From Prosthecobacter sp. (lineage in GTDB: Bacteria; Verrucomicrobiota; Verrucomicrobiia; Verrucomicrobiales; Verrucomicrobiaceae): 64,000 nucleotides of DNA. Shown one piece after another: positions 58,161 through 64,000 of the stretch. The stretch covers positions 1 through 64,000 of the forward strand of contig JAIPJY010000011.1 in assembly GCA_021733925.1 (NCBI GenBank), written 5' to 3'. The notes beneath the pieces were generated by a model that searched no databases, had not been told where the DNA came from, and saw only the letters and a list, made by a program, of their open reading frames with translations. The position numbers were made by a program, and so were the translations under genes. Within the stretch, counting starts at the first letter, position 1; each line of letters begins with the position of its first letter.

Positions 58161-60329
58161 ATGAATCGTCTCTTTTACGCCCTCACCCTTTTTGCGGCGC
58201 TTGCCTTGGCCGCACCGGTGTCGCATGCCCAGTCCATTGATGCCAGCAGCGAAGTGGCTGACCAGTACTTCCGCGGCTTTGTCCTCAACAATGAGGCCGC
58301 CGCACTCGAAACCGCCGGCGACTTCACACTCGCGCAGACCAAATTCAAACAGGCTGGCGAGATCATGGAAAGCATTGCCCGGAATTACCCGACGTGGCAG
58401 CCGGAAATGCGCGCTGCACGTCAGCAAAAAATTCAGGATTCCCTCACACGACTGCAGTCACGTTCTTCGCAGGCGCAAGGACAGGTGACCGCAGCCGCAC
58501 CTGCCCCGGCAGCGGCCGCAGCTCCCGCCCCCGCGATGGCAGCAGCCGCCATTCCTTCTCCCGGCATACTGGCCCAACCCGCCGCCGCCATTCCCGCCAA
58601 CCCCGGCTCACTGCCCAGCCTCAACGACATGCTGAGTCAATGGGAGCAGATGCACAAGCAGCGCATTCTGGAACTGGAAACGAAAAACAACCAGCAGCAG
58701 ATCGATCTCGGCAAATGGCAGAACTGGTACCAGTGGGCCTCCGGCGAGATCACCACCGCGCGCCAGCAAAACGACGCCCTTGGCAAAAAGGCCACCGCCC
58801 TGGAGCAGAGCCTCCTCGCCATGGGCAGGGATGTGGAGGAAGGCCGCGCCGCGCAGGCCCAAATGGGCAGGCTGATGGAAGAAAAAATGGCGGTTGATCT
58901 GGAGATGCGTAAAAGTGCCCAGCGCCTGATGGCCGCCGAAGCCGCTGCCAAGGATGCCTCGCAAAAACTGTCTGATGCCTCCACCCAAATCGCGGCTGTA
59001 CAGCAGGAGCGTGAGAAGCTCAACAACGAACGTGACCAGATCATCAAGGAACGTGATGGCGCGATCGCTCAGCGCGATGAAGCGGTGAAAAAGAGTGAAT
59101 CAGCCGTCAAGGAACGTGACGCCGCCAGCGCCCGCAGCCTGGGATTGCAGGCCGAGGTGGAAGAATTGAAAAAGAAAACCGGCAGCGCCGAAATGAAGCG
59201 CCTCATTGCCGAGAACGAGCGTTTGAAAAAGGAGATCGTCGAAGCACAGAAGCAGGTGGAAACCCTGAAGGCGGATGTCGGACGCAAGGACCAGGAAATC
59301 GTCGCCCTGCGCGGCCAGCTCACCGGATTGCAGGGCCAGATGGCCGAACTCCGCAAAGAAAGCACCACCTACCAGACCCAGGTCGCCGAGCTGACGAAGC
59401 AGCTCAAGGAAGTGCAGGGCGGCATGGAGGGCAAGATCGCCACCACGCCTGAGCTCACCCAGGAAAATGAAATGCTGCGCAGCATCATCATGCGCCAGCT
59501 GCGCACCCAGCATCGTCAGCAGGCCGCCAAGGACCTCATGATCGCGGAACTGCAGAAAATGGAGAGCGCCTCCAACGATCTCGTCAAACAGGTCGAAGAA
59601 ATGAAGAACGCGCGCATGATTCTGACACCGGAGGAGGAAAAACTCTTCTCCGATCCCGTCGTGCGGGAACTGCTGGGTTCGAAGGGCGGCATGCAGGCCA
59701 CCCTCATCGCCAACGCATCCCCGGACAGCGATAAAAAAGTGGCTCCTCCTCCACCGACCTCCGTCGAAAAACTCATCAGCCAGGCCAACGAAACCTACAT
59801 GAACAAGGATTTCGAAAGCGCGGCCAAGCTCTATCAGGACGCGCTGCGGGCTGAACCCAAAAACGTGACCGCCCTCATCGGTCTGGGCATCACCCGCCAG
59901 CGTGAAAACAAACATGCCGACGCCGAAGTGTCCCTGCAGAAGGCCCTGGCCTACGATCCGACCAACGAACCCGCCTCATTCGCGCTCGGTGTCACCTATT
60001 TCAAACAGGAACGCTGGAAGGATGCGATGACCTACTTCGAGAAGAGCCTCGCCAAACGCCCCGACAACGCCAGTGGCAGGCATTACCTCGGCATCATCGC
60101 TACCAAGCTTAACTTGATTGAACGTGCCGAACGCGAATTCAAAACGGCTCTGGCCATTGATCCCACCTACGGCGAAGCCCATTTCAATCTGGCCGTGCTC
60201 TACATCACCTGGGATCCCCCGCAGTGGGACAAGGCACGTGCTGAATACGCTGAGGCGATCAAAAAGGGTGTCCGCCCCGACCCCAATCTCGAAAAACTGC
60301 TCGAAGGCGACAAGGTTTCGCAGCGTTAA
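58161..60329 (+). CDS. Secreted coiled-coil and TPR protein
   Basis: The 722-residue protein has a signal peptide (MNRLFYALTLFAALALAAPVSHA). A short helical N-terminus follows, then an Ala/Pro-rich linker at about residues 108-150. A long coiled coil runs from about 180 to 500 (for example AEVEELKKKTGSAEMKRLIA). TPR repeats fill 540-720 (SAAKLYQDALRAEPKNVTAL and KDAMTYFEKSLAKRPDNASG). It is probably a periplasmic scaffold. Its architecture echoes the larger TPR protein at 2.8-9 kb. It has no enzymatic motif that I can see. Confidence 0.85.
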   Translation: MNRLFYALTLFAALALAAPVSHAQSIDASSEVADQYFRGFVLNNEAAALETAGDFTLAQTKFKQAGEIMESIARNYPTWQPEMRAARQQKIQDSLTRLQSRSSQAQGQVTAAAPAPAAAAAPAPAMAAAAIPSPGILAQPAAAIPANPGSLPSLNDMLSQWEQMHKQRILELETKNNQQQIDLGKWQNWYQWASGEITTARQQNDALGKKATALEQSLLAMGRDVEEGRAAQAQMGRLMEEKMAVDLEMRKSAQRLMAAEAAAKDASQKLSDASTQIAAVQQEREKLNNERDQIIKERDGAIAQRDEAVKKSESAVKERDAASARSLGLQAEVEELKKKTGSAEMKRLIAENERLKKEIVEAQKQVETLKADVGRKDQEIVALRGQLTGLQGQMAELRKESTTYQTQVAELTKQLKEVQGGMEGKIATTPELTQENEMLRSIIMRQLRTQHRQQAAKDLMIAELQKMESASNDLVKQVEEMKNARMILTPEEEKLFSDPVVRELLGSKGGMQATLIANASPDSDKKVAPPPPTSVEKLISQANETYMNKDFESAAKLYQDALRAEPKNVTALIGLGITRQRENKHADAEVSLQKALAYDPTNEPASFALGVTYFKQERWKDAMTYFEKSLAKRPDNASGRHYLGIIATKLNLIERAEREFKTALAIDPTYGEAHFNLAVLYITWDPPQWDKARAEYAEAIKKGVRPDPNLEKLLEGDKVSQR

Positions 60330-60334
60330 GAAGA

Positions 60335-60357
60335 CGACGGACGCAAGGTTTCCGTCG
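60335..60357. other. Hairpin before the dipeptidase fusion gene
   Basis: CGACGGA (60335-60341) and TCCGTCG (60351-60357) form a 7-base stem with a 9-base loop in the 38-base gap between two same-strand genes. No T-run follows. Its role, if any, is unclear. Confidence 0.35.
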
Positions 60358-60367
60358 CTCTTCAGCC

Positions 60368-62863
60368 ATGAAAACCCTGCTCGCTTTTTTACTCGCGGCC
60401 TCCGGCCTCGCAGCCCAAACCTTGGTCGAAATCGGCACCAAGGCGGATGGCCTCGTGATCGATCTGCGCTACACCACGGCGGACAATTTTTTCAAAACGG
60501 CGTTCTATCCCAGGCATGCACGCGCCATGCTGCGCCCGGCCACCGCAGCCAAACTGGCCTTGGTACAAGCTGAGTTAAAATCCCAGGGCCTGAGCTTGAA
60601 AATCTGGGACGCCTACCGTCCGCTCTCCGTCCAACGCGCGATGTGGAAAACGCTGCCAGATGAGCGCTTCGTGGCCGATCCCTCCAAAGGCGGTCGTCAT
60701 AACCGGGGAGCCGCTCTGGATGCGACACTCGTCGATTCCCATGGCGTGGAACTTCAGATGCCGACAGCACACGATGACTTTTCAGAGAAAGCCGGTGCTC
60801 ATTTCAAACTGGTGCCGCCCGAAATTTTCAAGAACCGCGAAAAGCTGCAGCAAGTGATGACCAAGCACGGTTTCGCCTTGTTCGAAAGCGAGTGGTGGCA
60901 TTTTGATGACGCCGACTGGAAACAGTATGAAGCCTTGGACATTCCTATCGAGCCGCTGCAAGCGAAGCACCTGCTGCTCGACTCACGTGTGGTTCAAGAG
61001 ACGCTGAATGCCAAACTCATCCTCGGCACACCGCAGAAGCATCCGGCCAATCCGCTGATTCAAGCTGACAAGCCCTGGGAAAATTCGATGAACAACCTCT
61101 ATCCCAATGTGATCTGGGATGAAGACGCTCAGCTCCTCAAACTCTGGTACAAGTGTGTTCTGGCCGACAAGGAAGTGATCGCGCAGATGGATCAGCCCAG
61201 CACGGTGCATGATGTCGGCTGGTATCTGCTGTATGCCACCTCCAAAGATGGCATTCACTGGGACAAGCCTGAACTGGGCATCCACAAGTTCGCCGGCAGC
61301 AGCGCCAACAACATCGTCGCCCGTGATTGCCCGAATGTCGGCGTGTTCAAAGACCTTCACGATGCCGATCCGGCGAGACGCTACAAAATGGTGAGCGATG
61401 TCGGCCTCGGCAAGCCCCAGGTGCGTTTCTCAGCCGACGGCATTCACTGGGGCGAAGCCCTGGCCGCCCACGGCTTCGGCGCACAGAACGGCGACACCCA
61501 CAACAATGCATTCTGGGACGAACGCAGCGGCAAATACCTGTGGTTCACCAAACTCTACCTCGGCGAACGGCTCGTCTCCCGCTTCGAGAGCGATGACTTC
61601 CTCCATTGGAAAAACAACGGCCTCGTTCTGCGCTCCAACATTGATGAAGGCCGCGCCAGCCAGACCTACTGCATGCCCGTGTTTCGTTACGGCAGCATCT
61701 ATCTCAGCTACGTAATGATGTACAACGTCGGCAGCGGCCGCTCAGTCGATTGCGAACTGGCGTGGAGTCACGACGGCCTGCAATGGCAGCGTGTGGCCCC
61801 CGGAACGCCCTTCATCCCACGCGGAGCGAAAGGCAGCTACGACAGCGAATGCATCTACGCGATGGCCGGCCCGCCCATCTTGAAAGACGGCAAGCTCATG
61901 ATCTACTACGGTGGCGATGACTTCCCCCACACCGGCTGGAAGCGTCATTGCCTGCCCTGCCTTGCAACGCTGCGTCCCGATGGATTCGCAGGCTACACAC
62001 CCGTCGAGGCCGACAAACCCGCCCACGTGCTGACACGGACACTGCGACTGACCTCGGAGCCGGTTTGCATCACTGCCGATCTAGCCCCTGGCGGCAGCCT
62101 GCGTGTCCTGGCAATAAATGACCAAGGCACCGTGTTGGACACAGCAGAAGCAATCTCAACCTCAGTGACAGATGCGCCCCTAAAATGGAACAAGGGTCCC
62201 TTAACAGCCCCGGCTGCCCGCTTCCGCATCGAACTGGACCATGCGGTGCTATATGCCATCAGCGGCGGCGACTTGGTTCACCAAGAGATGCCGCCCCCCG
62301 AAAATCCATTGAAGTCGGCGACACGTGTGATCCATCCCACGACGACACAAACGCTTTCATTCGATGCAGATGCCCAGGGCTGGAAAGGCGTGGATCAACT
62401 CGAACACCATGCCGCAGGCGGCGCGAAAGGCGGCTACATCCACGTCTCACGCAGCGGCAGGGCGCTGCCCATTGCCCTCTCCCCGGTGACGGCCAAAGAA
62501 TCACCTCTGGCGGGTGACTGGACCCAGGTCATCGGCGGCAAGGGCGCCGAGATCACCTGCCAGGTGCGTTCAGCGAAACCGGGAGGTCGTGTCAGGATCG
62601 AACTGTTCGCAAATGACATCGCTCAGTGGCAGTTCGAGACGCAGACCACGTTTTCACCTGAATGGAGCAAGGCCGCAGCCACCTTGCGCTATGACTGGGA
62701 CGATGCCGAAGCGCTGGCCGCAGGCTGGAAACGTGCAGCCAACAGCTTCTCATGGGCGGACACGATTCAACACATCGGCAAAGTCGTGATCGTCCCCGGC
62801 GCTGCTGGAGCGCAGGAGAGTTTCGACTTGGATGAACTGAGCGTCAGTGGTTCAACCCGCTGA
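60368..62863 (+). CDS. Secreted D-Ala-D-Ala dipeptidase (VanX/M15D) fused to a glycosidase-like beta-propeller domain
   Basis: The 831-residue protein has a signal peptide (MKTLLAFLLAASGLAAQ). Residues about 20-200 form a VanX/DdpX-type M15 dipeptidase: IWDAYRPLSVQRAMW, the zinc-site block GRHNRGAALDATLVD, and the catalytic ESEWWHFDD. From about residue 230 a second domain has propeller-like repeats, such as SKDGIHWDKPELG, RFSADGIHWGEAL and SHDGLQWQRVAPG, resembling GH43/GH32-type five-bladed propellers. A beta-sandwich-like tail closes the protein. I infer periplasmic cleavage of D-Ala-D-Ala linked to carbohydrate binding or hydrolysis. The propeller's activity is not established. Confidence 0.85.
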   Translation: MKTLLAFLLAASGLAAQTLVEIGTKADGLVIDLRYTTADNFFKTAFYPRHARAMLRPATAAKLALVQAELKSQGLSLKIWDAYRPLSVQRAMWKTLPDERFVADPSKGGRHNRGAALDATLVDSHGVELQMPTAHDDFSEKAGAHFKLVPPEIFKNREKLQQVMTKHGFALFESEWWHFDDADWKQYEALDIPIEPLQAKHLLLDSRVVQETLNAKLILGTPQKHPANPLIQADKPWENSMNNLYPNVIWDEDAQLLKLWYKCVLADKEVIAQMDQPSTVHDVGWYLLYATSKDGIHWDKPELGIHKFAGSSANNIVARDCPNVGVFKDLHDADPARRYKMVSDVGLGKPQVRFSADGIHWGEALAAHGFGAQNGDTHNNAFWDERSGKYLWFTKLYLGERLVSRFESDDFLHWKNNGLVLRSNIDEGRASQTYCMPVFRYGSIYLSYVMMYNVGSGRSVDCELAWSHDGLQWQRVAPGTPFIPRGAKGSYDSECIYAMAGPPILKDGKLMIYYGGDDFPHTGWKRHCLPCLATLRPDGFAGYTPVEADKPAHVLTRTLRLTSEPVCITADLAPGGSLRVLAINDQGTVLDTAEAISTSVTDAPLKWNKGPLTAPAARFRIELDHAVLYAISGGDLVHQEMPPPENPLKSATRVIHPTTTQTLSFDADAQGWKGVDQLEHHAAGGAKGGYIHVSRSGRALPIALSPVTAKESPLAGDWTQVIGGKGAEITCQVRSAKPGGRVRIELFANDIAQWQFETQTTFSPEWSKAAATLRYDWDDAEALAAGWKRAANSFSWADTIQHIGKVVIVPGAAGAQESFDLDELSVSGSTR

Positions 62864-62865
62864 GA

Positions 62866-64000
62866 TCAGGGACGGATTTCTTCGCCCGTAGTCGCATTCG
62901 CCAGGGTCATCTGCTCTCGATGGAAAGCAGGGTCGCTGCGGAAGGTGAGACGCGCCTGATACTTGCGTTCGAGATCCACCAGCAGCTCACCATCCTCGCT
63001 CTTGAGACGGGTCAGCACCTCGGGATGCACGATGACGATAATGCTCTTCTGATCCTCCTTGGCCCGACCCAGCACCGCGACAAGACGGCGCTGCAGCTCG
63101 ACGCTCATGGTGAGCGGCGTTTTGACCTGGCCGTGGCCTTTGCAGTACGGGCAGGGTTCATAGAGCGTGGTGCCGAGGCTCTCATTGAGACGCTGGCGGG
63201 TCATCTCCATGAGACCGAACTGCGAGATAGGCAGCACCTGGGTCTTGGCCTTGTCACGCTTGAGATGATCGATCATGAGCTTGTACACGGCCTGCTGGTC
63301 ACGGCGGTGTTTCATGTCGATGAAGTCCACCACGATCAGGCCGCCCATGTTGCGCAGGCGGAGCTGGCGCGCGACTTCGGCGGCGGCTTCGAGGTTGGTT
63401 TCGAGCAGGAGCTTGTCGACGTCCTTGTGCCCCTTGTTGCGGCCGGTGTTGACGTCAATGGAGACGAGCGCCTCAGTTTGATCGATCACGATGTAGCCAC
63501 CGCACGGCATCCACACCTGGCGGTAGAAGGCGTTGTCGATCTGCTTTTGGATCCCGTAGTGCTCAAAGATGGCGCTCTGGCCCTGGTAGAGATTGATCCG
63601 GCGTTTCGCACGGCCGGAGATGTGCGCAGCCATGCGCTGCATGCGTTCGACGGTGGCGGCGTCATCGCAGGCGACTTCATCGATGTCCTCGGTGAGGAAA
63701 TCACGCACCGTACGCTCGACGAGATCAGGCTCTTGGAAGCAGCAAACAGGGGCGTTCTGGCCGTCGCGCTTGGCGACGATCTGGTCCCACTCATCGAGGA
63801 GGATGTTCAAATCCCGCACGATGTGCCGCGCACGCTTGCCGGAAGCTTCGGTGCGCAGGATGATGCCCATGCCCTCAGGCAGGCTGATTTTTTCGATGAT
63901 CTTGCGGAGCCTCGAGCGCTCCTTCGGGTCTTCGATCTTGCGCGAGATACCGCAGGTGTCATTCAGCGGCATCAACACAAGCAGTCGGCCTGCGAGGGAG
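62866..64000 (-). CDS. Ribonuclease E/G family protein, cut by the window edge
   Basis: The frame runs off the right end of the window. The codons up to 63999 still read SLAGRLLVLMPLNDTCGISRKI, the conserved RNase E/G sequence, so the true start lies beyond 64000. The visible 370-odd residues hold the DNase I-like catalytic site (YIVIDQTEALVSIDVNTGRNKG region and GLIVVDFIDMKHR) and the zinc-link CPYCKGHG. The small C-terminal part follows. The enzyme cleaves single-stranded RNA in mRNA decay and rRNA maturation. Whether it is RNase E or RNase G cannot be decided from this part. Confidence 0.93.
   Translation of the reverse strand, partial: SLAGRLLVLMPLNDTCGISRKIEDPKERSRLRKIIEKISLPEGMGIILRTEASGKRARHIVRDLNILLDEWDQIVAKRDGQNAPVCCFQEPDLVERTVRDFLTEDIDEVACDDAATVERMQRMAAHISGRAKRRINLYQGQSAIFEHYGIQKQIDNAFYRQVWMPCGGYIVIDQTEALVSIDVNTGRNKGHKDVDKLLLETNLEAAAEVARQLRLRNMGGLIVVDFIDMKHRRDQQAVYKLMIDHLKRDKAKTQVLPISQFGLMEMTRQRLNESLGTTLYEPCPYCKGHGQVKTPLTMSVELQRRLVAVLGRAKEDQKSIIVIVHPEVLTRLKSEDGELLVDLERKYQARLTFRSDPAFHREQMTLANATTGEEIRP

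Follow-up and report, generated by a model that had tools for sequence, protein, structure and literature searches.

A VanX/DdpX-type dipeptidase joined in one frame to a probable propeller of an unnamed family in a Prosthecobacter-like clade

The first 64,000 nucleotides of contig JAIPJY010000011.1 of Prosthecobacter sp. (GenBank assembly GCA_021733925.1; hereafter the window) contain a gene in which a D-alanyl-D-alanine dipeptidase is followed, in the same reading frame, by a second half with repeated motifs and a tail domain. An earlier note on this DNA read the second half as a propeller of the GH43/GH32 kind and proposed that the pairing might couple the recycling of peptide stems to glycan processing. 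The question raised by this locus is whether the two halves form one working unit or merely share a chain. The present evidence favours two separate activities in one chain. The reading we prefer, and to which we give an even chance, is that of an exported chain with two hydrolase-type domains acting on their own substrates, in which the join is tolerated and not required. No paper describing a dipeptidase-propeller fusion was found among the open-licence literature, and the fusion itself is real but rare.

The frame of 831 amino acids lacks internal stop codons, and the whole fusion frame was found in five of the 56 genomes searched, namely that of the window (G000), G020, G027, G029, and G030. 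The other four fusion proteins show 88–90% identity, have lengths of 832, 832, 832, and 836 amino acids and are likewise free of stops. The relatives that bear them (loci L069, L070, L077, and L071) are metagenome-assembled genomes of Verrucomicrobia or Verrucomicrobiaceae and a Prosthecobacter sp. Across the ten pairs of fusions, the median ratio of nonsynonymous to synonymous change (omega, Nei-Gojobori method) was 0.13 for the dipeptidase (M15) domain, 0.07 for the propeller, 0.17 for the region that follows it and 0.12 for the C-terminal domain, at a mean synonymous divergence (dS) of 0.52–0.91 over the regions (approximately 0.5 for M15 and propeller). Both halves of the fusion are under purifying selection. 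As the same intact frame is present in four other assemblies and selection acts on both halves, the join is not a frameshift artefact. The fusion also accounts for four of the 73 propeller loci described below. In everything searched it is confined to one Prosthecobacter-like clade.

The N-terminal half is readily assigned. Residues 25–183 match Peptidase_M15 (PF01427) with an E-value of 1.1e-31 and 110.6 bits, above the gathering cut-off of 27, and residues 16–191 match the NCBI model of D-alanyl-D-alanine dipeptidase (DdpX, NF007557) with an E-value of 1.9e-44. The residues R84, H111, D118, E175, and H178 align to the solved chain of a D-alanyl-D-alanine dipeptidase (1r44) and do not vary across the 33 M15 domains aligned. 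The opposite positions of 1r44 are presumably the catalytic arginine, the zinc ligands and the base of VanX, in which we take H111, D118, and H178 to correspond to the ligands and E175 to the base. The earlier identification of a VanX-type dipeptidase with intact zinc-site motifs is supported by the family match and the five retained residues. The domain resembles the DdpX model more than the VanX model, and the window protein differs from these enzymes in its additional C-terminal propeller and tail, which solo relatives (for example L025, L027, and L166–L169) lack. At an E-value of 1e-45, the dipeptidase of this lineage is found in eight of 48 genomes of the genus (five fused and three solo), and nine of 387 genomes of the phylum, the window genome included, reach 1e-35. 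Of the 35 genus genomes searched, at least 33 also carry a second M15 gene, with 35–44% identity.

Within the second half, four units of the form S-x-D-[GF]-x-x-W are located at residues 292 (SKDGIHW), 355 (SADGIHW), 408 (SDDFLHW), and 467 (SHDGLQW), with a blade-like spacing of 63, 53, and 59 residues. In hhalign, this half (approximately residues 198–639) joins six proteins of its own genome (L003–L008) with a probability of 100 and an E-value of 2e-54. Proteins of this type, of approximately 500 residues and without a Pfam assignment, make up a large family with at least six representatives in the window genome; a scan of six such proteins gave one GH32N match below cut-off and one chance-like match. 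When the propeller alignment was run against a collection covering 84,980 species, restricted to carriers of one of two short patterns, it yielded 73 loci (L068–L140), some of them truncated at the end of a contig. Four of the loci are fusions. The stretches fetched for the remaining 69 show no dipeptidase match, except for a signal-peptide match in L068 (the locus of G001, see below). Many of these loci open with a signal-peptide-like stretch of their own, as judged by inspection. For the propeller, separate-gene versions therefore dominate, the outcome that the earlier note had set against a joint role.

The second half is a member of this unnamed family, which occurs in Verrucomicrobiota and others and is not covered by a curated family. 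In an alignment of 71 rows (70 of the 73 loci and the window; L139 and L140 were too short and the match in L136 starts late), 41 columns are invariant in all rows, among them seven acids of the sort that the earlier note suggested looking for in the propeller (D205, E238, D329, D376, E463, D469, and D492), with counts that are biased at the scan-pattern residues 235–242 and 432–440, within which E238 is conserved partly by the selection of loci. In the six distant paralogues, retention of these acids ranges from D205 (6/6), D329 (5/6), and D376 (4/6) through E238 and D469 (both 3/6) to D492 (2/6) and E463 (0/6).

The relationship of this family to known glycosidases appears remote. No Pfam match was found for the second half of the window protein. 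GH43 (PF04616) was matched neither by the window protein nor among the 10 families listed for the 71 members, and hhalign gave a probability of 0.6 with a GH43 profile of only four sequences, three of them near-identical. For GH32 (PF00251) there was no match in the window protein; GH32N was found in two of the 71 members (best E-value 0.044), with hhalign probabilities of 70 for the propeller profile and 76 for the profile of the six paralogues. GH130 (PF04041) was matched by one member at an E-value of 0.16 (hhalign 4.7, paralogue profile 2.1) and BNR_2 by one, and the NCBIfam model of beta-1,2-mannobiose phosphorylase reached 20 of 450 bits. Eight of the 71 members match the NCBI scrB model, which we take to be of the GH32 type, with a best E-value of 0.0067. 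The hhalign controls, an M15 profile and a PQQ-type propeller profile (eight rows), gave 1.0 and 0.5, respectively.

Among structures in the PDB, the best match of the propeller profile is 6n1a (E-value 7.8e-7), deposited as a carbohydrate-binding protein, followed by 4u6d at 0.15 amid noise. The match to 6n1a adds up four short stretches around the DGxxW motif, each worth 1.8 to 10.9 bits and none significant by itself, and it drops to an E-value of 0.013 with a narrower profile. With the paralogue profile, 7fip, 6n1a, 4onz, and 4u6d were matched at 0.03–0.44 and beta-galactosidase entries at 0.27; non-significant matches to 7fip, 4u6d, and 5ta7 span E-values of 0.03–3.4. On the basis of the weak matches to 6n1a, 7fip, and 4u6d, presumably five-bladed carbohydrate enzymes, the second half is likely to form a five-bladed propeller. 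PMC9728383 unites GH32, GH43, GH62, GH68, GH117, and GH130 in one five-bladed superfamily with a catalytic acid and base. The window propeller resembles this superfamily in its repeat spacing, its GH32N probability and the weak scrB matches, whereas its own family reaches no curated cut-off and any mapping of its catalytic residues is uncertain. Kinship to the superfamily is at most distant, and membership of GH43 or GH32 was rejected, as no curated model was reached. Of the earlier description, the repeated DGIHW-type units remain, in a propeller-like region of the general GH32/GH43/GH117/GH130 sort with several invariant acids; an assignment to GH43 or GH32 is not supported.

The history of the pairing can partly be read from a single slot, bordered by a coiled-coil/TPR gene and a convergent RNase E/G gene, that is found fused, trimmed on either side, or emptied with relics remaining. 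In the window this slot spans 60330-62865, and loci L038–L057 represent it in relatives. The TPR gene was present in 46 of 48 genus genomes, of which the best 30 were examined; 20 of these, the window included, belong to the nearer subclade. In the nearer genomes, the slot holds the fusion in the five listed above, the dipeptidase alone in three (G002, G022, and G058), a propeller only in two (G016 and G032), other sequence in two (G025 and G026) and neither gene in seven (G004, G008, G011, G012, G014, G031, and G067). In the twentieth, G001, a signal peptide near-identical to that of the dipeptidase runs straight into the propeller with no M15 domain between them, and the TPR gene is 97% identical to that of the window over the 309-residue query. 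In the other 10 of the 30 genomes, neither half was found within the 1.1–1.5 kb fetched behind the TPR gene. In addition to the propeller-only gene of the slot, G032 (L073:751-2772) and G016 (L074:1997-4201) each have a second, separate propeller copy.

Nine propeller-less slots (G008 was not compared) were aligned with the fusion gene and with 300 shuffles each, in which only base composition was kept. G058 retains two relics: 59 nt of the 3′ end of the fusion gene, with a score of 73 against 29 for the best shuffle, and 30 nt of the propeller start, with a score of 35 against 28. The latter lies 12 nt past codon 193 of the dipeptidase, where the fusion has 17 nt; as this leaves no room for a signal peptide ahead of the propeller, the ancestor of G058 was most likely fused. 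The 3′ end of the fusion gene is also kept in G012 (81 against 29), and a piece of the dipeptidase in G014 (58 against 28). No relics beyond chance were found in G002, G022, G004, G011, G031, and G067. A tree of the TPR gene from 24 genomes unites the five fusions with G001 in a single clade (0.955), which is joined successively by G002 (0.998), G058 (0.829), and G012 (0.989). These data are most simply read as a fused ancestor that dates back at least to the node shared with G058, with later loss of the propeller, the dipeptidase or both. A fusion that is older than its present holders and was trimmed both ways speaks against obligate coupling, and since relatives carry just one half or the other, the halves probably work independently. 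The coupling of peptide stem and glycan proposed earlier is weakened by these slots and by the 69 unfused propeller loci.

In the reading that we prefer, the probable signal peptide ahead of the dipeptidase, judged by inspection, would export the whole protein. The first half would act as a zinc dipeptidase of the DdpX sort that frees D-alanine from D-Ala-D-Ala outside the cytoplasm, an activity suggested by its established family, and this cleavage would most likely serve scavenging or recycling. According to PMC8743547, ddpX of E. coli is the first gene of an operon that encodes a D-Ala-D-Ala dipeptidase and a transporter and is induced under nitrogen shortage, which suggests that the dipeptide is put to use. 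The second half would be a propeller that acts on carbohydrate, most likely as an exo-acting glycosidase from a yet-unnamed family, with remote profile similarity and the invariant acids pointing to both fold and activity, and the tail domain may bind glycan. As the neighbouring genes scanned around separate propellers are diverse, no substrate is proposed. The junction itself is seen in the fusions; it may have arisen when the mature part of a propeller, minus its own signal peptide, came in frame behind the dipeptidase, and the join would provide co-export and a fixed stoichiometry.

Several observations weigh against this reading. That the fusion is intact in five genomes, and its omega low, would equally fit a need for the join. 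The dipeptidase half misses the cut-offs of the DdpX equivalog NF007557 (151.6 of 176 bits) and of the VanX equivalog NF033115 (55.8 of 320 bits). On the propeller side, the GH130 and GH43 profiles give no signal and stay close to the controls, the PDB matches are weak and stand among obvious noise (Granzyme A, for example), and D205 is the sole invariant acid kept in all six distant paralogues. The neighbour scan, in which 81 hand-picked open reading frames (ORFs) from 34 loci were taken out of 213 ORFs from 52 of the 73 loci, gave no shared family in more than four of the 81 ORFs (25 of 124 families listed). As to the slot, the missing M15 domain of G001 is known from one assembly, the propeller-only genes of G016 and G032 have a signal peptide unlike that of the fusion, and G002, the nearest genome outside the fusion clade, is without a propeller relic, so that the slot may first have contained either a tandem pair or a single gene.

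Among the alternatives, we consider it unlikely that the propeller lacks catalytic activity and serves as a glycan-binding anchor for the dipeptidase. Its place in no assigned glycoside hydrolase family would fit such a role, as would the deposition of its best PDB match, 6n1a, as a carbohydrate-binding protein and the absence of most invariant acids from one or other of the distant paralogues. The 41 invariant columns with their seven acids resemble an active pocket instead, and 69 of the 73 loci have no fused enzyme to anchor. Similarly improbable is a join that is functionless as such and only transient, in an unstable slot that gains and loses genes. The contents and relics of the TPR-RNase E/G slot do differ across the genus, but the fusion has remained intact over the divergence of five genomes (dS approximately 0.5 in M15 and propeller), and omega is low in either half.

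Distinctly unlikely, in our view, is a coupled enzyme in which the propeller acts on the sugar and the M15 domain on the D-Ala-D-Ala end of one and the same cell-wall-derived glycopeptide. D-Ala-D-Ala occurs in peptidoglycan stems, the start of the protein resembles a signal peptide, and both halves are conserved in the five fusions, all of which agrees with coupling; if true, this would be an unusual wall-recycling enzyme. Combinations of a peptidase and a glycan-active domain in one chain are known from two-domain phage endolysins and wall hydrolases, from which the window fusion differs in being chromosomal and in its own signal-peptide-like start. Of the viral contigs, 60 stretches matched a pattern and none was confirmed as a propeller relative with the propeller profile; a viral origin of the propeller was rejected on this basis. 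Against coupling, the same slot holds either half alone in relatives, and 69 of 73 propeller loci have no M15 match in the fetched stretch, apart from the signal-peptide match of L068. Moreover, PMC6403190 sets VanX, a dipeptidase, apart from VanY and VanXY, and attributes to VanXY a second cavity, absent in VanX, and the use of pentapeptides, implying that VanX-type enzymes favour the free dipeptide.

It is equally doubtful that the propeller deacetylates sugars with the help of a metal, or is some other five-bladed protein that is not a glycosidase. Its best PDB match, 6n1a, is to our understanding the GalNAc deacetylase of Flavonifractor plautii, and the invariant H378 stands opposite a histidine of 6n1a in the alignment. 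However, that match consists of the four short stretches described above, weakens as stated with the narrower profile, and places the invariant D376 opposite a proline, and H378 is kept in none of the six distant paralogues. The accessible text of PMC11762096, on that enzyme, mentions neither a propeller nor a metal.

A second fusion of a related dipeptidase with a different propeller was found in another family of the order, where eight of 74 genomes carry a full-length protein of M15 and a PQQ_2/BamB-like propeller (L028:1441-3339, L174–L181). Its M15 domain lies on the same side of the tree as that of the window protein and, by inspection, ends at a similar point before the second domain, whereas its propeller is of the PQQ_2 type (E-value 3.9e-20) and gives an hhalign probability of 0.5 with the window propeller. 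In the M15 tree of 33 rows, the PQQ-type fusions group with a solo gene (93/90). The window-type fusions form a different group together with solo genes (100/99), and a larger group (100/98) encloses the two. A single clade of both kinds of fusion and three solo genes is not strictly rejected (AU test, p 0.076), so that the independence of the two fusions rests mainly on their unrelated second domains. We regard as very unlikely the most far-reaching proposal, that the window protein is a bifunctional exported enzyme whose dipeptidase and new glycosidase-type propeller process the same wall-derived glycopeptide, within a recurring design of this order that places related dipeptidases before different propellers. 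Finally, that an assembly or sequencing error joined two genes is practically excluded: nothing was found in favour of it, and the junction recurs with differing linkers in five assemblies, of which four have public titles.

The layout of the gene and its borders are given in Table 1.

Table 1. Positions of the fusion gene, its parts and the genes that border the slot, in window coordinates.
Feature	Position	Strand	Basis or remark
Whole fusion gene, 831 aa plus stop	60368..62863	+	One frame, also present in the four further fusion genomes
Probable Sec signal peptide, residues 1-17 (MKTLLAFLLAASGLAAQ)	60368..60418	+	By inspection
M15/VanX-DdpX-type dipeptidase domain, residues 18-191	60419..60940	+	Family-model matches, 1r44 alignment
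HNRGAALD motif, H111 to D118	60698..60721	+	Alignment
EWWH motif, E175 to H178	60890..60901	+	Alignment
Linker, residues 192-200	60941..60967	+	Alignment of fusions
Propeller-like region, approximately residues 201-535, limits approximate	60968..61972	+	Fold suggested by remote profile matches
Region after propeller, approximately residues 536-645	61973..62302	+	Profile alignment
C-terminal domain, residues 650-831, no known family	62315..62860	+	Family scan and genome search
Coiled-coil/TPR gene, left marker of slot	58161..60329	+	Upstream; 38 nt separate it from the fusion
RNase E/G gene, cut by window end, right marker of slot	62866..63999	-	Convergent, 2 nt past the fusion stop

Up to approximately residue 639, the region after the propeller aligns with the usual tail of the wider propeller family and is probably beta-sandwich-like. 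The last 180 residues or so gave no match to a known family in the family-model scans. In 37 genomes this C-terminal domain was not found outside frames with this propeller subfamily; its 12 matches, in 11 of the genomes, all lie in such frames. The linker between the two halves varies among the fusions and is 1 to 4 residues longer in the other four proteins than in that of the window.

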